26,694 nucleotides of DNA from Deltaproteobacteria bacterium RIFOXYA12_FULL_61_11 (lineage in GTDB: Bacteria > Bdellovibrionota_F > JAHFAK01 > YA12-FULL-61-11): contig MGSU01000324.1 of assembly GCA_001799195.1 (NCBI GenBank), positions 1 to 26,694 of the forward strand, in the 5' to 3' direction. The translations under genes were made by a program, and so were the position numbers. Below, one piece after another: positions 1 to 9,584 of this stretch. The notes below the pieces were generated by a model. The model searched no databases. It was not told the DNA's origin and worked only from the letters and a program-made list of their open reading frames with translations. Position 1 is the stretch's first letter. Each line of letters begins with the position of its first letter.

Positions 1-1256
1 CCGGTTTCGGTCTGCTCCGGTCACTATCTCTCGGATCGTCTCGCCATACGCTCCTGCATCGCCGCACGCTCGGGCTGACGGTCCTCGCCGTCGCCGGGCT
101 TTACTTGGCCCTCGACCTGCCCGGGACCTACGCTCTCTGCCAGGCGCTGCCCGTGCTCTCCAGCCTTCGGGCGCCGGGCCGCTTCCTGCTCCTTACCACT
201 ATGGCCCTCCTGCTCGTCGGGGCTCTCTGGCTGGATCAACTCCTCTCGCCCGGGAGACCCTTGGCGAAATGGCGTCTCCCCCTGCTGGGCCTCGCCCTGC
301 TCGAGGCTCTCGTGACCACGACCCTCCTCTCCTCCCAAGTCCCGAGTTCTGTCAACGAGTTCCAGCCTTGGCAACTCCCCCTGCTCCGGAGCAGCGAGCC
401 CGATAGCGCGGGTTTCCCCCCGAGGTACTATGCCCCCGGCTTCTGGGTCCGGCCCGAGGAAATGGAGGACCACACACCTGCGGCCCTCATCGCTCTCTTC
501 TCGGACCTGCCGCCGGATAGGGATCTGGCCATGAGCTTCGGGCTCGCTTCCGTGCAGGGCTATGGGGAACCCCTTCCGCGCTGGCAGGAAGCGACCCTCG
601 CGGATTTGACTCCCTTGCTGTTGGCCCGGTTCGGAGCGGCGTGGCTCTTCCTGCCCCAACCGCTCGACCATGCCACGCTCGAGCTCGTGGCACACAACGG
701 CCGGGTGTGGCTCTATCGCAATCGTCTCACCCTGCCGCGGACCCGCTTGGTGCGCGAGCTCATCCAGGCGCCCTCGACCCAGGAAGCCCTGGTACTCCTG
801 CGAGGCACCGCCGTGGATCCCCGCCGGTCGGCCGTCGTCGAGACCGACGTCCCTGCACTCCCGGCTACCACCAACGAGCTCGTGGGCACGGTCCGTCTGC
901 TCCGACAAGGTCCGAACGACCTGGAACTCGCGGTCGAGAGTTCCGGTCCCGCGTACCTCGTCGTGGCCGAGACGTGGGCGCCGGGCTGGCGCTGCAGCGT
1001 GAACGGACACGAGACGCCGCTCTATCGCGCCGACGCCATGTTCCGGCTGGTTGCCGTGCCGGCGGGTCATTCCCTGGTCCTCATGGACTATCTCCCACCC
1101 GGACTGTTCCCCGGTGCCCTCTTGGGTGCCATCGGGTTCGTCCTCCTGGCGTTCGTCGCGTTCGGGGGAAAACTCGTACCGGGAGGTAGGAAGCCGAGGA
1201 AGGGGGGATCAATCCCCCCGGCGCTCGTCCATGGCGCCGGAGAGGCAAGGGCATAG
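1..1256 (+). CDS. YfhO-like multi-pass membrane protein, C-terminal part
   Basis: The reading frame is open from the first bases of the window, so the N-terminus lies outside it. About 418 residues are visible. Hydrophobic segments appear near the start (around LTVLAVAGLYLALDL) and again after the APGRFLLL stretch. A long extracytoplasmic part follows, then a last membrane segment (LLGAIGFVLLAFVAF) and a basic tail. The segment AETWAPGWRCSVNGHETPLY with the later VPAGHSLVLMDY matches the C-terminal sandwich domain of YfhO and related GT-C membrane proteins, which in known members help attach sugars to lipid or wall polymers. The family call rests on this C-terminal signature; substrate is unknown. 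The last codons overlap the hairpin array that begins at 1202. Confidence 0.75.
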   Translation, partial: GFGLLRSLSLGSSRHTLLHRRTLGLTVLAVAGLYLALDLPGTYALCQALPVLSSLRAPGRFLLLTTMALLLVGALWLDQLLSPGRPLAKWRLPLLGLALLEALVTTTLLSSQVPSSVNEFQPWQLPLLRSSEPDSAGFPPRYYAPGFWVRPEEMEDHTPAALIALFSDLPPDRDLAMSFGLASVQGYGEPLPRWQEATLADLTPLLLARFGAAWLFLPQPLDHATLELVAHNGRVWLYRNRLTLPRTRLVRELIQAPSTQEALVLLRGTAVDPRRSAVVETDVPALPATTNELVGTVRLLRQGPNDLELAVESSGPAYLVVAETWAPGWRCSVNGHETPLYRADAMFRLVAVPAGHSLVLMDYLPPGLFPGALLGAIGFVLLAFVAFGGKLVPGGRKPRKGGSIPPALVHGAGEARA

Positions 1257-1547
1257 GGTATGGGAAGGTAGGCCGACGTCCGTGCGGCCCCGATCTGCGC
1301 GACCAAACCCTCCCGGGCGCTTCTTTTCGCCCAGGAGGAGTAGAGCATAGGGAAACGCCGACCGTCCCTGGTCGGCTGTAGAACCTCTTGGGTTACGATC
1401 CCCGGGCAACGTCCGTGCCCCCGGGGACGGGAATACCACAACGCCGGTCTTCCCTGCCGGCCCTCGCACTTCGAACAAACCCCCCCGGAGCACGTCCTTG
1501 GCTCCGGGGGCGTAGAGCATAGGAAAACACCGGGCCGCCCTGCCCGG
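1218..1547. repeat. Array of four double-hairpin units with conserved loops and linkers
   Basis: Four units start at 1218, 1309, 1400 and 1482 (spacing 91, 91, 82). Each has a long stem-loop, a purine-rich linker and a short stem-loop. Long stems: 1218-1224/1234-1240 (CCGGCGC), 1309-1319/1328-1338 (one mismatch), 1400-1408/1416-1426 (two-base bulge), 1482-1491/1501-1510 (ten perfect pairs). Short stems: 1271-1275/1285-1289, 1357-1363/1370-1376, 1443-1447/1457-1461, 1530-1535/1542-1547. Stem sequences differ while both arms change together. Loops keep a GTCC core (TCGTCCATG, ACGTCCG, ACGTCCTTG, GTCCCT). The linker GTAGAGCATAGG is kept in units 2 and 4, and a relative, GGGCATAGGG, is in unit 1. 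The array lies between convergent genes, and a GGGGGGAT-CA-ATCCCCCC hairpin at 1202-1219 precedes it. I do not recognise the element: structured RNA, REP/BIME-like DNA element or a Rho-independent stop cluster are all open. Confidence 0.7.
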
Positions 1548-1762: not shown

Positions 1763-3211
1763 TCAGCGCACGATGTTAACCAACTCCGCCAGCAGGTCGG
1801 AAGAGGTCGTGATACACCGAGAGTTGGCCTGGAAGCCGCGCTGATGCTGGATCAGCGAGACGAACTGGGCCGACAGGTCGACATTGGACTGCTCCAGCGT
1901 GTTGGACACGATGGTGCCGCGGTCGGCCTCTCCCGGGGCGCCAACGGTCGGGGGACCCGAGGACGGGGTGTCGACGAAGGTATTGCCGTTGTCCTTGACC
2001 AGGCCGTTGGGGTTCTCGAAGGAGGCCAGCACGACCTGACCGATGGTCCTGGTCTCACCGTTACTGAAGATGCCGGTGATGCTGCCGTCGATCTCGAACT
2101 GGTAGTCGGTCAGCGAACCGGCTGCGCGGCCGTTCTGGTACAGCGAGGAGGTCGTCGAGGGCAGCCGGAACTGGGTGGTGCCCGCGAGACCGGTGCCAGC
2201 GGCTTGACCGTAGACCGCGTTGCGCGGATCGCCGTAGTCGAGCTGGACGTTGTTCATCGAGTCTACGCCGCCGACGAACTGGACCGAGTAGCTCGGCAGG
2301 AGATCGGTCGGCGCGAAGTCGGTCACCGCGTCGTTGAAGCCGTTGGAGGCCCAATCGAGCCGCCCCTGGCCGTCGAACTCCAGGGTGCCCTGGCCGACGA
2401 TGGTATAGGCCGGGGTGCTGTTCACGCCGTTGAGGTCGCCGGCCTGCGTGGCGCCTAAACCGGCGATGAAGGCGGGTTCGACCTCGTTGGTGTTGACCAC
2501 GGCGTTCCATTCCCAGCGGTTGTCGCCCGCGGCATTGCCGACCCGGGTGAAATAGACGTTGAGCTGGTGGCTGAGACCCTGGGAGTCGTAGACCTTGAGA
2601 CCGGTGGAGAAATTGCTGGTGTTGTTCGGGTCGGTCAGGTTGAAGGGCCGGGTGTTGAAGTCATCGGCCGGGTTGGCCGGGGTGCCGTTGTCGTTGCTGT
2701 TGCCGGCAATGGTCGGCGCACCGGCGTCGAGGTTGACGTAGACCCGGGTCTTGTTCGAGGCCTGGGACACGACCGAGACATTGGAGAGGTTGATATTGCT
2801 GACCTCGGCCGAGAGATTGCCGTAGATGTCGGTTTGGAACCCCTGCACCTTGAGCCCTGCGTTATTCGAGAGGAAACCCTCCTCGTCGATCTTGAACTGC
2901 CCGTTGCGGGTGTAGTAGTTGCGCGAGCCGTTGCTGGCAATGAAGAAGCCGTTGCCCGAAATGGCCAAGTCGGTCGGCTTGGTCGTGGTCATGAGCGAAC
3001 CCTGGGTGAAGGAGGTGTTGATGCCCGAGGTCCTCGCGCCGAGACCGACCTGTTTGTTGCCCAGATTGGCCAGCAGGCTCTCGAACTCCACCCGGCTGGA
3101 CTTGAAGCCCACCGTGTTCACGTTGGCGATGTTATCGCCGATGACCGCGATGGCCTCGCCGTTGGTCGCAAGACCCGTGATGCCCGAATACAGGGTACTG
3201 AGAATAGACAT
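1763..3211 (-). CDS. flgE: Flagellar hook protein FlgE
   Basis: The 482-residue product builds the hook, the universal joint joining the flagellar rod to the filament. It is exported by the flagellar type III apparatus. The N-terminus (MSILSTLYSGITGLATNGEA, then IGDNIANVNTVGFKSSRVEF) is the classic rod/hook motif. The next region (TDLAISGNGFFIASN) is the conserved start of the FlgE core. The middle is variable, with many Asn, Gly and Thr residues. The C-terminus (VDLSAQFVSLIQHQRGFQAN, then LLAELVNIVR) is the helical zone that pairs with the N-terminus in the hook wall. A GGGAGG ribosome site precedes the ATG. It is the last gene of fliK-flgD-flgE, 53 bases after flgD. Length is in the normal range. 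Confidence 0.97.
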   Translation of the reverse strand: MSILSTLYSGITGLATNGEAIAVIGDNIANVNTVGFKSSRVEFESLLANLGNKQVGLGARTSGINTSFTQGSLMTTTKPTDLAISGNGFFIASNGSRNYYTRNGQFKIDEEGFLSNNAGLKVQGFQTDIYGNLSAEVSNINLSNVSVVSQASNKTRVYVNLDAGAPTIAGNSNDNGTPANPADDFNTRPFNLTDPNNTSNFSTGLKVYDSQGLSHQLNVYFTRVGNAAGDNRWEWNAVVNTNEVEPAFIAGLGATQAGDLNGVNSTPAYTIVGQGTLEFDGQGRLDWASNGFNDAVTDFAPTDLLPSYSVQFVGGVDSMNNVQLDYGDPRNAVYGQAAGTGLAGTTQFRLPSTTSSLYQNGRAAGSLTDYQFEIDGSITGIFSNGETRTIGQVVLASFENPNGLVKDNGNTFVDTPSSGPPTVGAPGEADRGTIVSNTLEQSNVDLSAQFVSLIQHQRGFQANSRCITTSSDLLAELVNIVR

Positions 3212-3264: not shown

Positions 3265-3966
3265 TCACTGGATCCCGGCCACCGGCCCCGCTTCTCGCAA
3301 GGCGGTCACGGTAGCGGCAGGCACCTCCATGCCGTCGATGGTCAGCATCGGGCGTCCGTCCTTCATGCTGACCCCGCTGACCATCCCCTCCTGGTAGATC
3401 TTGCCCTCGACCTCGTCCCCGGCGAAACCCTGTCCGGTGACCGCCAGGCGATAGGCCCCCACGTTGAGTCCGCGTGTATCCACGGCCACGCTGTTGGTGC
3501 CGGCCAAACGCGGTTCGTCGATCGGGACGGTTTTCACCACCTTGCCGCTGCGATCGATCAAGGCCACGCTGAGCGACTTGGTGTTCTCGGGGAGTTCGAA
3601 GGTCACCTCCATCTGGGTGCCGCCACTGAACTGGACCTCCGAGCTGTAGGCCTTGGCCACCTTGCCGAGATATCCCACATAGCCTGCGTCGAGCATATCC
3701 TTGCCCGCGCTGTCTTCGGCGTGCATTGAATCGAGGGTCTTGTTGATATTGAAGAGTTGCTCCAGCGAGCTGAACTGGGCGAGCTGCTGGGTGAACTCGG
3801 CGTTGTCCATCGGGTTCATGGGATCCTGGTACTCGAGCTGTTTGACCAACAGGGTGAGGAACTCCTCCCGGCCCATATCGGCAGGGTTTACCTCTTCCAC
3901 GGTCTGCGCCTGCTTGTTCAGCACGGTCGAGTTCTGCAACGAGGTGATTGCCGGCGTCGTGGACAT
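3265..3966 (-). CDS. flgD: Flagellar hook assembly (capping) protein FlgD
   Basis: This 233-residue protein is the scaffold that caps the growing hook so FlgE subunits can be added; it is exported and later lost. The N-terminal half carries the family signature GREEFLTLLVKQLEYQDPMN followed by DNAEFTQQLAQFSSLEQL, around residues 32-72. The C-terminal half (from about residue 95) fits the FLN/Tudor-like FlgD fold: GGTQMEVTFELPENTKSLSV, a short Gly-rich stretch, and a final TIDGMEVPAATVTAL. The ATG at 3966 follows a GAGGT ribosome site. The fliK stop is only eight bases upstream, so fliK and flgD are probably translated from one message. Confidence 0.96.
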   Translation of the reverse strand: MSTTPAITSLQNSTVLNKQAQTVEEVNPADMGREEFLTLLVKQLEYQDPMNPMDNAEFTQQLAQFSSLEQLFNINKTLDSMHAEDSAGKDMLDAGYVGYLGKVAKAYSSEVQFSGGTQMEVTFELPENTKSLSVALIDRSGKVVKTVPIDEPRLAGTNSVAVDTRGLNVGAYRLAVTGQGFAGDEVEGKIYQEGMVSGVSMKDGRPMLTIDGMEVPAATVTALREAGPVAGIQ

Positions 3967-3974
3967 CGTCTACC

Positions 3975-5273
3975 TCACACTCTGATATCGATGCCGGTCC
4001 CACCGACCAGCCTCGAGGTGGCATATCCAACACTGTCCCCGGACGGCCGGACGACCTCTTCTCCACCGGGGAGCTGGAAGAAGAGGTTCAGGTCCTCGTA
4101 CTCGGCATAACGCTGCCGACTATCGTTTTCGTCGCTCTCGCGATCGTTGAGTTCGACACTGCATTCCTCGAGTTCGAGCTCCTGATGACCGAGCAGCTCG
4201 CGCAACTCGTCGAGGTTCTCTTCCAGCAACTCGAGGGCCTCGGGGTTCTCGGCGATCAGATGAACCTTGACTTCGCCGTCCTTGACCTCGAGCTCGATCT
4301 TGACCTGGCCGAGGTGCTCGGGTTCGAGTTGGATCCTCGCCTTGCCGCCCTCGCCGTCGGCGAGCACCTGTATCTCGCGCGCCAGACCGGTCAGGAGTTG
4401 TTCCTCGGACACCTTCGGCATTTCCTCGGCTCCGGCCTGCTCTGCAGCTTCACTTCCACTCTCGGCGCGGCCTGCCTCGTCGCTCTCGTTCGGTCCCTGT
4501 CCATCCGCCACTGCTTCGAAGGGTTCTCCTTCCGATGGGGGAACTTCCAGGGCGGCCGCGGTCAAGACCTCTTTGGACCCTTGGCCGTTCTCACCCTGCA
4601 ATTCGTCCTTGCCCGAACCGGCCACCGCGACCGGATCCACGGCTTCGCGCTCCTCGTCGGTCCCGACTTCACCGCGGATTTCGGTCGCGCCACGCTGCTC
4701 GGCTCTGCCGGGGCGAACCAGGGCAACGGCCTCGCCGTCACCAAGGGTTTGCTGCCCGGCCTGGGGCTGGATACGTTCCTCGGTACCGGCCGGTGTGGAA
4801 CTTTCTTTTTCGGCTTCCTGCGCTTCCTCCTCGAGCATGGAGGCGAGTACCCGCTCAGCGACCTTGTCGGCAGAAGAAACTCCGGCGGACCGCTGCTGGG
4901 GAACCACCACGTTCGAAGGTACTGCCGCGGGCGGTACGTCCTTGATCTGCGTTTCCGAACCCGCGGTCTCGATCGGGGCCTCTTCGGCCGCAACCATACC
5001 CGCGGTCGCTACGAGCACCGTCTCCAGGGTCTCGGACCCATCCGGGGTCTCCGGTTGGGTCTCGGGTGCTGGGAGTCCTTCCGGAGAAACCGCGAAGGGC
5101 ACATTTCCCAAGAGTTCCAGCGGATCGGTACCCGACTTCTCCGATTCCTGAGGTTGCAGCAAGGTCTCCAACAGGTCCCCGAAACCTTCTCCCTGTTCGC
5201 CGCCTTCGGTCAGGACGGGCTGCTCGGCCGTGCCCGACGGTGCCGCGACGATGTCCAACAGAGAGAGCTCCAT
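3975..5273 (-). CDS. fliK: Flagellar hook-length control protein FliK
   Basis: FliK measures hook length and switches the export apparatus from hook to filament subunits. The long N-terminal part is of low complexity, rich in Glu, Pro and Ala, as usual for the ruler. The conserved C-terminal Flg_hook domain reads ARIQLEPEHLGQVKIELEVK and continues through HLIAENPEALELLEENLDEL, about 100 residues before the end. The frame is open to an ATG at 5324, but I prefer the ATG at 5273 (MELSLLDIVA, 432 residues). It is preceded by GAGGTAGGC, much like the flgD ribosome site, whereas the 5324 codon has no ribosome site and sits almost on top of a TATGAT box. It is first in the minus-strand hook operon and divergent from the TolQ-like gene. 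Confidence 0.9.
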   Translation of the reverse strand: MELSLLDIVAAPSGTAEQPVLTEGGEQGEGFGDLLETLLQPQESEKSGTDPLELLGNVPFAVSPEGLPAPETQPETPDGSETLETVLVATAGMVAAEEAPIETAGSETQIKDVPPAAVPSNVVVPQQRSAGVSSADKVAERVLASMLEEEAQEAEKESSTPAGTEERIQPQAGQQTLGDGEAVALVRPGRAEQRGATEIRGEVGTDEEREAVDPVAVAGSGKDELQGENGQGSKEVLTAAALEVPPSEGEPFEAVADGQGPNESDEAGRAESGSEAAEQAGAEEMPKVSEEQLLTGLAREIQVLADGEGGKARIQLEPEHLGQVKIELEVKDGEVKVHLIAENPEALELLEENLDELRELLGHQELELEECSVELNDRESDENDSRQRYAEYEDLNLFFQLPGGEEVVRPSGDSVGYATSRLVGGTGIDIRV

Positions 5274-5330
5274 GCCTACCTCGATCCTTTCGATCGGGGA
5301 GGCCTTGAGCAAGGGCGATGCCATGGCTTT

Positions 5331-5570: not shown

Positions 5571-6203
5571 ATGGACTTCCTGACCGGCGGCGGCATTTCC
5601 TTCCTCCTCCTGGTGATCATCTCCCTGCTGGCCGTGGCGCTCATCTTCGAAAAAGTCCTCCAGGTGTTCTTCAAGCTGCGCATCAACGTCGATTACTTCC
5701 TCGCCTATGTCCTCAAGTTGGTCGAATCCGATAACTTCAGCAAGGCCATCGGGCTGTGCGACTCCTTGGCCAGGCACCCCATCGGTCAGGTGGTCAAAGC
5801 CGCCCTTCTCAAGGCCAACAAGAGTGATCGCGAGATCGAGCGTTCTCTCGAGCAGACCGCCACCAAGGTTGTCCCCGAAATCCGCCGCCGCACCGTCTAT
5901 CTCTCCCTCTTGGCTCACCTGGCAACCTTGATCGGTTTGCTCGGAACCCTGCTCGGCCTGATCACCGCCTTCGGCGCCATGGCCGCCGTCGATCCGACCG
6001 CACGCTCGGCCATGCTCTCGGAGGGAGTCGGTACGGCCATGCGTAGCACCGTGGTAGGCCTCCTGGTGGCCATGCCCTGTCTCATCGCCTACGTCGTCCT
6101 GCGCACCAGGGAAAATCACTTGATAGAACAACTCGACCACTGCGCCATCACCATGCTCAACGTACTCGCGGCCCGCAATGCGAAGCTTCTCCAGGATAAA
6201 TGA
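5571..6203 (+). CDS. MotA/TolQ/ExbB-family proton channel protein
   Basis: The 210-residue inner-membrane protein is the pentameric channel half of a proton-driven motor. Three membrane segments are visible: residues about 8-30 (SFLLLVIISLLAVALIFEKV), about 108-136 (SLLAHLATLIGLLGTLLGLI) and about 150-172 (MRSTVVGLLVAMPCLIAYVV). The last two hold the family patterns GLLGTLLGLI and TVVGLLVAMP that line the pore. The topology is ExbB/TolQ rather than MotA. The frame is open far upstream, opposite fliK, but the real start is the ATG at 5571 behind GAGGG. It heads a five-gene operon with ExbD-like and TonB-like partners. TolQ, ExbB and gliding-motor AglR cannot be told apart from this sequence alone. 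Confidence 0.93.
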   Translation: MDFLTGGGISFLLLVIISLLAVALIFEKVLQVFFKLRINVDYFLAYVLKLVESDNFSKAIGLCDSLARHPIGQVVKAALLKANKSDREIERSLEQTATKVVPEIRRRTVYLSLLAHLATLIGLLGTLLGLITAFGAMAAVDPTARSAMLSEGVGTAMRSTVVGLLVAMPCLIAYVVLRTRENHLIEQLDHCAITMLNVLAARNAKLLQDK

Positions 6204-6693
6204 GCAGGAACCCCGCTGGTACCGGCTGCAACTCCTGCCCGTACTCACCCTGTTCGCAGCGTTGGTACCGTTGCTGCTCTGTCTGACCAGCTTCAGCCAA
6301 GCCGTCAACTTACGAGCAGGGCTCCTCCTGGTGGAGAATAAAGAAACCCAGGGCGAGGCCCGCGAACGCCAACTCGAACTCAGGATCGAACGCCAGCGTT
6401 TGGTCCTCTTACCGCGCAAGGGTTTCAACCCGGCCCAACGCAAGGCGATCTCCACGGTATTCAAGAGCAAGGGCGGGGCGTTCGAGCTAGACCGCCTGCG
6501 GGCTCATCTGATCAAACTCGGCACGACCGTGCCGCAACTCGGAACCATCGAACTGGTCGCGGACGATGAGACGACCTTCAACCTCCTCATAGCCCTGATC
6601 GACACCGTCACCCAGGCAGGATTCGCGGTCCGCAGCGGCCAGAACGGACCTCCGACCTTCCTCTCGACCCTGTACGTCGAGGGCGAGCGATGA
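6178..6693 (+). CDS. Divergent ExbD/TolR-like protein lacking the membrane Asp
   Basis: A single membrane segment (residues about 17-40, LQLLPVLTLFAALVPLLLCL) is followed by a periplasmic part ending in ELVADDETTFNLLIALIDTV. That part resembles the ExbD C-terminal domain in pattern (strand, helix, then a helix before QAGF). Compared with the next gene, LLPVLTLF lines up with LTPLLDVL, so Thr24 sits where the proton-carrying Asp should be. The gene overlaps the channel gene by 26 bases and the next gene by four, with no ribosome site at its ATG, suggesting coupled translation. The likely role is a structural or regulatory partner of the real ExbD. The family assignment rests on pattern and context, so another single-pass protein remains possible. 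Confidence 0.65.
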   Translation: MRSFSRINEQEPRWYRLQLLPVLTLFAALVPLLLCLTSFSQAVNLRAGLLLVENKETQGEARERQLELRIERQRLVLLPRKGFNPAQRKAISTVFKSKGGAFELDRLRAHLIKLGTTVPQLGTIELVADDETTFNLLIALIDTVTQAGFAVRSGQNGPPTFLSTLYVEGER

Positions 6694-7157
6694 GAACCCG
6701 CTTTGCGACCTGCAGAACCGTCCGGGATCCCGGCATCGACCTTGACCTCACCCCCTTGCTCGACGTCCTGACCCTGTTGGTGGTCTTCTTCCTCCTCCTC
6801 TACGGCGACCAGACCACCGAGTCTTTGCCCGACGACCTCAACCTACCGACCATTTCTAGTACCGCGAAGGCCCAGAGCGGCCTCCCTCTCCTCCAACTCA
6901 ACGACGCCTATCTCTATTTCGAACAGACTTTGGTCGCCACCCTGACCAACGGCCGCTTCGTCCCCGAGGAACTCGAGGCAGGTGTGCTCAAACGCTTACG
7001 AGAACAACTCGAACCGCTCCTCGCCGGCCAACCTACTACCCCTGCGCTCGTCTTGTCCGCCGACAAGAACTCCTCGATGGCCGCCATCCGCGTAATCCTC
7101 CGCACCGCTGCAGCCGCCGGCATCACAGACGTGCGTTTCCTCTTGCGACGGAGGTGA
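6690..7157 (+). CDS. ExbD/TolR-family biopolymer transport protein
   Basis: This 155-residue protein has a short cytoplasmic tail, one membrane helix and a periplasmic domain. The helix carries the family signature DLTPLLDVLTLLVVFFLLLY with the essential Asp at residue 25, which takes part in proton movement through the ExbB/TolQ pore. The periplasmic end (ALVLSADKNSSMAAIRVILR, then AAAGITDVRFLL) is typical of ExbD: DK, then a helix, then a Gly-Ile-Thr turn. The ATG overlaps the previous stop by four bases and has GAGGG upstream. With the channel gene it should form the motor that powers the TonB-like product encoded six bases downstream. Confidence 0.92.
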   Translation: MRTRFATCRTVRDPGIDLDLTPLLDVLTLLVVFFLLLYGDQTTESLPDDLNLPTISSTAKAQSGLPLLQLNDAYLYFEQTLVATLTNGRFVPEELEAGVLKRLREQLEPLLAGQPTTPALVLSADKNSSMAAIRVILRTAAAAGITDVRFLLRRR

Positions 7158-7163
7158 AGGAAC

Positions 7164-9584
7164 ATGACCTCCGACCGCACCGAGATCTATACCGCGGACA
7201 GCCTTCCCTCCTTGACCCTGCGTATCTTCGAGGCAGGCGTAGAGGTGACCACGGTCACCTTCACGAAACCCAATATCACCCTCGGCTCTTCTCCCCGTTG
7301 CGACATCCAACTCCAAGCCTCGGTCATCGATCCCCAGCACCTCCTGATCCGCTTCCAAGGAGGGACCTATCACGTCCGAGAATCGAGTCAGGCCGGGTTG
7401 CTCTTGCTCAACGGACAGCGCTGTAGCCAAGCGGAACTCCGAGAGGGCGATCAACTCGGCCTCGGTCCCTACCTGTTCTTGCTCGGCGCCGGGGAAGGCG
7501 AGGCTACCACCGCAGAAGCGCGGCCTCTCGGGTTCGAAACCGGCGCAACGCCGGAAAACGCGACCACGACAGCTCAGGCCCTACCGAGGCCTCCCTCCGA
7601 CAAGACCGAGATCGCCTTCCGCGAACCCGCTCCCGGGGATCGCACCGAGTATTCTCATCGGCCGGACCTCGCCCTCCCCCCTCTGCTCAACGACCGGACC
7701 CAGATCATCTCCCGGACCGAGCAATCCCTCCGGCAAGCGATGCCCGTACCGCCGGTAGCACCACCTCTTCGTCGCGAGCCCACGGATCACCTCACCCCCC
7801 TCCCCCCTCCCGAACCGCCCGCGGAACGCTCCCAGAAGAGCGCCGCTCCTAGCGACAACCTCGTCCTTCCTCCCTCGGGCCTCCCCTTCGTAGGAGCTTT
7901 CCAGCCCGCCGGCAACGCCGCTGCCGGCACCCGTTTTCAGGACGAAGGTCCCCTCCCTTCCTCCATGGAGGCGAACCTCGAAGCGGCCCTACCCGCGGAA
8001 CACCTCGACCGCACCTTGGCCAAGCCGCTCTTCCGGGACTCCGACTATAACGAGGACGCCCCCTGGCATGAACCCTTCTCACTCATTGAAGCGCTGGCCG
8101 CGAGCCGCGAAGATCCCGCTACCGGGACGAACATCCTCGCAACAGGTTTGGAGATCAGCGTCACTCGAGGCGAAGACCTCCTGGCGCTTCACCACCTCCT
8201 CGAGTTCGAGACCTTCCCGGAACCCCTCGATTTCGGCACCATGCTCTCGCTGCCACTGCCTCTTCAGGACAGCGGTCAGTTCCACTTCCTGCGCGCCGTC
8301 GGCGATGAGTACTTCTTCTTCTGGTACGACGGTCTCGGCGGAACCCTGCACACCAGCGAAGGGGAATTCGACCTCGCCTCGCTGTGCGCCCCTGCCAACA
8401 AGGCTTTCACCGTCGGCGACCTCGGCGTGTACGGAGTGAAGCTGCGGCCCTCGGACTGGGTCTCTTTCACCCTGGGCGTGAGTGACTACGCCATTCGCTC
8501 CCATGGATTGTTACCCTTTGAACCCGAACGAGAAACCCTGTATGCCCCCCTCCTGGCCACGGGTTTGGTCCTCTCCCTGCTCCTCCATGTGGCCCTGGTC
8601 CCGCTCTATGCCTGGATGGGTAGCATGCCGCAACCGGGACCGAGCCCGTCTCCCTCGGAGGTCATCTTCTCCCTGCACCGCACCGCCCCTGAACCAGCGC
8701 CGGCTCCTGCTCCTCCCCAGGAAAGCCTTGCCAATGCCTCCCCAGCGCCGAGCATCGCCCTCCAGCCCGCTCCCTTGCCGATCGCACCACCGATAGTGGC
8801 CCAGTTCCAAAAACCCGTGCCGGTCCGATCGGCCTCCCCACCTCCTCCAGCCAGGTCCCACGGCACCAAGGTCCAGCAACCCGCTCCAACGGTTCGTCCG
8901 GGGAATCGCGCCCTTGCCGAAGAGCGCCCCCGGCCACCGGAACCCAAGGCCGAAAGCCCTGTCCCCGCATCACCTCCACCAGCGCCTCCGCCCCCTCTCG
9001 TGATCGCACCCTCTCCTCCCCCACCGGCACAGAAAGCCACTTCTCTGGTCCTGCCCGCAGACCCAGAACTCGAGCGCCTGTTCGGGACAACCGAGAGTCG
9101 CCCCCGCAGGACCGACGAGGAGGATGACGACGAGGATGAACCCAGCTCACGACGTTCTTCGCGAACGAGAGGATCCGGCCGCGGAGAACAGTCTACCCAG
9201 GACGATGATGGCCCCTCTATCAAGGTAGTCAGCGGTGGGAGCGGCAACTACGGCAGTCTGCTCAGCGAACTCACGGATGGCAGCGGAGGCGGCAGCGTCG
9301 ACACCGAGAAGGTCCAACGCTCCCTGGTCCGCCAGAAACAGAAAGTATTCTCCTGCATGGTCGATCAGCAGCGTAACCTCTCCCGAGCACCCAAGGCCGA
9401 GCTCAAATGGCAGGTCAACGATCGGGGGAAGGTCACCAAGGTCAAGATCGTTCGCACCAACCTGAGCGGCGCCAAGGAAGAGAAACTCAAGGAATGCCTG
9501 AAGCGCGCGGTCAAGAGCATGGAATTCCCCGACCTCCCTCCAGGCACCGTGCTGGAGCTGCGCGAGACCTTCGAACTGAAATGA
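7164..9584 (+). CDS. FHA-domain, single-pass, TonB/AgmX-like energy transducer
   Basis: The 806-residue product has four parts. (a) Residues about 15-105 are a cytoplasmic FHA fold (ITLGSSPRCDI, DPQHLLIRF, LLLNGQRC) in which the usual Arg and Ser of a phosphothreonine pocket are missing. (b) Residues about 329-450 (from LEISVTRGED) look like a second compact cytoplasmic domain. (c) One membrane helix lies at about 460-484, followed by a Pro/Ala-rich periplasmic rod and an acidic run near residue 650. (d) Residues 712-806 form a C-terminal domain like that of AgmX/PglI or TonB, with Cys731 and Cys778 placed as in the paired-cysteine family pattern. This layout recalls the Myxococcus gliding protein GltG. 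It would span the periplasm and pass motor force to an outer-membrane partner. Function as gliding, secretion or uptake is not decided. Confidence 0.8.
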   Translation: MTSDRTEIYTADSLPSLTLRIFEAGVEVTTVTFTKPNITLGSSPRCDIQLQASVIDPQHLLIRFQGGTYHVRESSQAGLLLLNGQRCSQAELREGDQLGLGPYLFLLGAGEGEATTAEARPLGFETGATPENATTTAQALPRPPSDKTEIAFREPAPGDRTEYSHRPDLALPPLLNDRTQIISRTEQSLRQAMPVPPVAPPLRREPTDHLTPLPPPEPPAERSQKSAAPSDNLVLPPSGLPFVGAFQPAGNAAAGTRFQDEGPLPSSMEANLEAALPAEHLDRTLAKPLFRDSDYNEDAPWHEPFSLIEALAASREDPATGTNILATGLEISVTRGEDLLALHHLLEFETFPEPLDFGTMLSLPLPLQDSGQFHFLRAVGDEYFFFWYDGLGGTLHTSEGEFDLASLCAPANKAFTVGDLGVYGVKLRPSDWVSFTLGVSDYAIRSHGLLPFEPERETLYAPLLATGLVLSLLLHVALVPLYAWMGSMPQPGPSPSPSEVIFSLHRTAPEPAPAPAPPQESLANASPAPSIALQPAPLPIAPPIVAQFQKPVPVRSASPPPPARSHGTKVQQPAPTVRPGNRALAEERPRPPEPKAESPVPASPPPAPPPPLVIAPSPPPPAQKATSLVLPADPELERLFGTTESRPRRTDEEDDDEDEPSSRRSSRTRGSGRGEQSTQDDDGPSIKVVSGGSGNYGSLLSELTDGSGGGSVDTEKVQRSLVRQKQKVFSCMVDQQRNLSRAPKAELKWQVNDRGKVTKVKIVRTNLSGAKEEKLKECLKRAVKSMEFPDLPPGTVLELRETFELK

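Follow-up and report, generated by a model that had tools for sequence, protein, structure and literature searches.

The hook gene flgE of Deltaproteobacteria bacterium RIFOXYA12_FULL_61_11 is followed by a dense array of GC-rich hairpins, and the question raised by this locus is whether these hairpins act as RNA or as DNA and, if as RNA, on what. Within the window (the whole stretch of DNA analyzed, 26,694 nucleotides), the array lies between two convergent gene ends. On the plus strand, a gene for a YfhO-like membrane protein, represented by its 3' part (105 to 1256, open at the window edge; Pfam YfhO 3.9e-07, supported by codon usage), ends inside it, so that the lower array edge overlaps the last codons of this gene. 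On the minus strand, the array is preceded by a fliK-like hook-length control gene (3975 to 5324; Pfam Flg_hook 2.4e-20), a flgD-like hook assembly gene (3265 to 3966; NCBIfam FlgD 8e-31), and flgE itself (1763 to 3211; Pfam FlgE_D2 and others; NCBIfam FlgE 4.7e-92), whose stop codon is ca. 50 nt from the upper array edge. Beyond this gene set, the window holds two ExbD/TolR-like genes followed by the gene of an 806-amino-acid FHA-domain protein (6178 to 9584).

The first-pass annotation had described four double-hairpin units at 1202 to 1547, with stem arms that vary together around a constant loop core and linker. The array is real, and its span of ca. 1202 to 1716 is larger than that: the four double-hairpin units are present, further GGA hairpins are found at 1576 to 1716, and there is a GC-rich hairpin at 1202 to 1219. 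A covariance model of the four units recovered all of them, on the minus strand (1554 to 1471, 1467 to 1388, 1382 to 1299, and 1295 to 1204; 63 to 94 bits), and the stem arms originally listed were correct. In the alignment of the units, 7 of the 15 consensus pairs had both partners changed in one unit or more, a covariation whose basis is four paralogous units of one locus only. In positions 1205 to 1762, there were seven perfect stems with a length of 6 bp or longer, against 1.3 in dinucleotide shuffles, with none of 1,000 shuffles reaching seven. Selection on structure with conserved loops, as had been proposed, is supported, and so is the possibility of a structured RNA. A coding repeat was considered and rejected: none of the unit steps (91, 91, and 82) is divisible by three, and no gene was called there by codon scoring.

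The nature of the loops depends on the strand on which they are read. On the plus strand, the GTCCNT loops match none of the known RNA families and GGA hexaloops are absent, and this reading was rejected. On the minus strand, which is that of flgE, the loop core GTCC(C)T becomes A-N-GGA-C, in hexaloops closed by C-G: C[AAGGAC]G, C[ACGGAC]G (twice), C[AUGGAC]G, C[AGGGAC]G (twice), and C[AGGGAA]G. Judged from their sequence, these are putative binding hexaloops of the CsrA/RsmA type, in the CANGGANG form, and they were overlooked when the first-pass annotation, using the wrong strand, stated that the array matched no known family. Apical CANGGANG hexaloops have been described as high-affinity CsrA/RsmE sites (PMC4894983). 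In SELEX, the consensus for CsrA was RUACARGGAUGU, with loops mostly of six nucleotides, and the repeats of CsrB read CAGGA(U/A/C)G (PMC7652899).

Following the minus strand away from flgE, the array begins with H1, a single CsrA-type hexaloop hairpin (CCGGGA-G-C[AGGGAC]G-A-UCCCGG; 1695 to 1716), then the GGA hexaloop hairpin H2 (GGUCCG[ACGGAA]CGGACC; 1629 to 1646), the weak H2b of 3 bp only (GUC[ACGGAG]GAC; 1606 to 1617), and H3 (GUCCCC[AGGA]GGGGAC; 1576 to 1591). Since H1 and H2 are outside the repeated units, the loop motif was not solely inherited through unit duplication. Unit a (1471 to 1554) consists of a short hairpin (1547 to 1530), a linker containing CCUAUGCUCUAC (1523 to 1512), and the long hairpin H5 (1510 to 1482; C[AAGGAC]G). 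Unit b (1388 to 1467) has the short hairpin H6 (1461 to 1443; C[AGGGAA]G) and the long hairpin H7 (1426 to 1400; C[ACGGAC]G). Unit c (1299 to 1382) has the short hairpin H8 (1376 to 1357; C[AGGGAC]G), a linker with CCUAUGCUCUAC (1351 to 1340), and the long hairpin H9 (1338 to 1309), and unit d (1204 to 1295) has the short hairpin H10 (1289 to 1271; C[ACGGAC]G) and the long hairpin H11 (1240 to 1218; C[AUGGAC]G). The last element is the GC-rich hairpin GGGGGGAUUGAUCCCCCC (1202 to 1219) followed by UUCCUC, a possible but poor transcript end. The loop core was thus kept in most hairpins, with two unit hairpins lacking GGA: the short one of unit a, altered to C[AGGGCG]G, and the long one of unit c, where the loop is degenerate (AAAAGAAG). 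The linker varied more than initially described, with GTAGAGCATAGG exact only in two units (1340 to 1351 and 1512 to 1523), partial in one (near 1250), and missing in the fourth.

The concentration of these motifs was then compared with the rest of the genome. On the flgE strand, CANGGANG occurred 8 times in 510 nt, versus a genome mean of 0.206 per 510 nt, and the next densest place, with five, was a transposase-linked repeat (1.94 Mb scanned; unchanged on 2.17 Mb). Hairpins with an ANGGAN hexaloop numbered seven in the array, whereas the shuffles averaged 0.109 (maximum of 2 in 1,000) and the plus strand had none. For strict hexaloop hairpins, the genome rate was 0.027 per kb per strand (1.94 Mb), and six were present here in 569 nt, with no more than two in any other 569-base window. 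With a genome-wide pattern requiring two CGTCCNTG sites, the window was the sole place to give two separate matches. GGA was the commonest triplet in minus-strand hairpin loops (9 of 24 copies). Two features count against the CsrA reading: in a span-limited fold, just 9 of the 24 GGAs were unpaired, and the array stems are longer than those of typical CsrA sites, as the majority of CsrA ligands in SELEX had no more than four contiguous pairs (PMC7652899).

No intrinsic terminator was found between flgE and the array in the promoter and terminator scan, nor any match to sigma-70, sigma-54, or sigma-28 promoters, although the patterns used may not be the host's own types. Therefore, the array is probably the 3' untranslated region (3' UTR) of the fliK-flgD-flgE transcript. 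Within it, there were a weak sigma-54-like match at 1421, a sigma-28-like match at 1395, and a chance-like terminator call at 1548 to 1529; no promoter of its own with a GacA/UvrY box and no Rho-independent terminator were recognized at the array. A structured 3' UTR might also stabilize the flgE mRNA, or end transcription between the convergent genes, with no part for CsrA, and the position, the very stable hairpins, and the terminal hairpin at 1202 to 1219 agree with such a role. However, it would leave the one-strand conservation of the ANGGAN hexaloops unexplained, and there is no terminal U tract on either strand, so that a bidirectional terminator is not supported; we regard this explanation as improbable. 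Slightly less probable again is that CsrA binds the array and acts in cis, controlling the stability of the flgE message with no titration. The same loop evidence and the adjacency to flgE would fit, but some 8 to 10 sites are beyond the need of a cis switch and resemble CsrB/RsmZ.

Similar loops are also found elsewhere in the genome, within repeats that are probably DNA elements. A MITE-like interspersed repeat, bounded by TTCAGTCTTGGG and CCCAAGACTGAA and containing double-hairpin modules in varying number, was present at ca. 50 places (e.g., L141:8171-8400, L183:2971-3170, L180:10344-10539, and L212:3278-3451). Its modules have the loops CANGGATG and CAGGATG, the linker ACCTCCA, and the flank GTCGG, and their upper stems vary while the loops are kept. 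The repeat is mostly located between divergent genes with little orientation bias, and this orientation and location point to DNA mobility, not RNA. Two loci with CANGGATG and CAGGATG loops, L141 and L226, were considered as further sponges and rejected as members of this high-copy transposase-linked repeat; they were not counted as support. The compact CAGGGATG/CAGGATG hairpin array of L226 (7085 to 7250), just upstream of a ribosomal-protein-S1-like gene, is apparently a diverged member of the repeat and could be transcribed as a leader. The transposase domain Y1_Tnp (PF01797) had 12 matches in the genome, with transposase genes at L254, L255, L256, and L257 (contigs C341, C5, C194, and C295), and in L256 the hairpin modules are inserted where the C terminus of the protein is encoded, GGA being on the antisense strand.

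Given these interspersed repeats with similar loops, the flgE array could itself be REP-like or another DNA hairpin array, with palindromes made or recognized as DNA (e.g., by a Y1 single-strand transposase) and compensatory changes generated by palindrome correction and not by RNA function. The DNA hairpin element of the first-pass annotation thus keeps some weight, as other transposase-linked hairpin repeats exist in this genome. The array shares GC-rich palindromes, conserved loops, and compensatory stems with the REP/BIME elements of RAYT (TnpA_REP) transposases, and CANGGATG-loop elements of this kind occur here. Besides the 12 Y1_Tnp matches, the high-copy modules with C[ANGGAU]G loops, in the 3' end of one Y1_Tnp gene and in the MITE-like repeat, favor this explanation; CANGGATG hexaloops in what are probably DNA elements indicate that such loops can arise otherwise. 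A one-base bulge is also frequent near the hairpin loops, a feature used by single-strand transposases (PMC8266576).

However, REPs are dispersed and multicopy, while the flgE array is restricted to a single locus. Further copies in the genome had been proposed as a check, and the covariance model matched the array alone in 4.64 Mb; the linker had no second locus, and blastn of the array against 2.17 Mb gave no match elsewhere save one (28 bases; E value of 0.08). The script scans covered these 2.17 Mb, about half of the genome, and the remainder was covered by pattern and model searches. There was no significant similarity between the array and the other hairpin modules in pairwise comparison (best E value of 0.08), and no Y1_Tnp on the contig of the array. 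As to the REP-type GTAG/GGAG tag at the 5' foot of the hairpin, none was clearly recognized; GTAG is found on the plus strand immediately behind the long hairpin of two of the four units, yet 14 nt before the next hairpin, and is lacking there in the other two. The array loops end mostly in C and not in T, GGA hairpins are present outside the units too, and the GGA strand is sense to flgE here and antisense to the transposase gene in L256, the case examined. Altogether, we consider a DNA hairpin array unlikely, though it is the leading alternative to a CsrA-binding RNA.

Comparisons beyond this genome gave no relative of the array. No Rfam family matched at gathering score, including the CsrB and RsmX/Y/Z models, which are gammaproteobacterial, so that only those sequence families are rejected. 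The sole Csr-type match was RsmW (RF02809), on the same strand, with 15.4 bits (E value of 4.9), far under the gathering score of 52. A covariance model search of 97 other genomes, proposed at first as a check in relatives, returned no homologue and only matches as expected by chance for so many genomes, the best weak match (in the GC-rich genome G020) lacking CANGGANG, and DNA searches in relatives were also negative. The closest FlgE relatives, with up to 42% identity, belong to Myxococcota and other former Deltaproteobacteria, and no comparable GGA array was found near flgE in 80 related loci. There was no FlgE match in the sole other genome of the same phylum searched.

If the array binds CsrA, the protein should be encoded in the same genome. 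One CsrA was found (69 bits), with L4, the RNA-contact residue R44, the FliW-contact residue N55, and a C-terminal extension, and its gene adjoins fliW and flgL. The N55 residue and the C-terminal extension are hallmarks of a FliW-controlled CsrA (PMC13407953). On another contig, the leader of a flagellin gene (L230, ca. 1410 to 1500) has GGA motifs at the Shine-Dalgarno sequence and upstream of it, together with a sigma-54-like promoter (TTGGCATTGGACTTGC); these motifs are weak evidence for this flagellin as a candidate CsrA target.

Direct observations are the array itself, with GGA hexaloops on one strand only, its single occurrence in the genome, its position behind flgE, and the presence of CsrA and FliW in the genome. 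As read from these sequence features, we think it rather probable that the array is a CsrB/RsmZ-like, CsrA-titrating RNA within the FliW-CsrA flagellar circuit. Transcription would extend into the region 3' of flgE, giving the 3' UTR of the fliK-flgD-flgE mRNA or an RNA processed from that mRNA, and this RNA would fold into about ten GC-rich hairpins, most with a C[ANGGAN]G hexaloop. A CsrA dimer may bind each such hexaloop with one of its faces, and with adjacent sites ca. 25 to 90 nt apart, several dimers could be loaded. Transcription of the hook genes would then lead to titration of CsrA by the array RNA, with a putative role in flagellar timing, and CsrA repression would be lifted from targets such as the flagellin mRNA, in parallel to the protein antagonist FliW.

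The closest functional parallels to such a CsrA-titrating RNA are CsrB/CsrC and RsmX/RsmY/RsmZ of Gammaproteobacteria, with which the array shares the many hairpins, the loop GGA matching the CsrA consensus, and, putatively, the titration of CsrA. In contrast to that family, it has no sequence or Rfam match, longer and more GC-rich stems, and no recognized promoter of its own, GacA/UvrY box, or U-tract terminator; it is located in the 3' region of a flagellar operon, in a FliW host. Another parallel is the flaA mRNA of Campylobacter jejuni, which titrates CsrA together with FliW (PMC4894983). It, too, comes from a flagellar gene and has apical hexaloops resembling CANGGANG in a FliW organism, the titrator role being proposed for our array, but its sites are two and in the 5' leader, while here ca. 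eight motifs are downstream of flgE.

Known CsrA antagonists are of two kinds: sRNA sponges, mainly in Gammaproteobacteria, where FliW is absent, and, in other bacteria, the protein FliW. The BarA-UvrY system, driver of the sponges, shows a strong anticorrelation with FliW (PMC4682653), and according to a review (PMC7652899), it is still to be settled whether FliW and sRNAs cooperate in any species. For Geobacter sulfurreducens, a deltaproteobacterium, characterized CsrB-like RNAs are lacking (PMC13407953). A multisite CsrB-like sponge outside Gammaproteobacteria, carried by a hook operon in its 3' UTR and working alongside FliW, would bring both kinds of antagonist into one cell, a proposal to which we give slightly less than even weight. 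The locus suggests that CsrA sponge RNAs can escape Rfam models. It also makes the coexistence of FliW and RNA antagonists testable, as a specific RNA is here linked, in a host with FliW, to transcription of the hook genes, which immediately precedes the export of flagellin. If true, a many-site CsrB-like array in an organism with FliW would bear directly on the question of whether both antagonists coexist.
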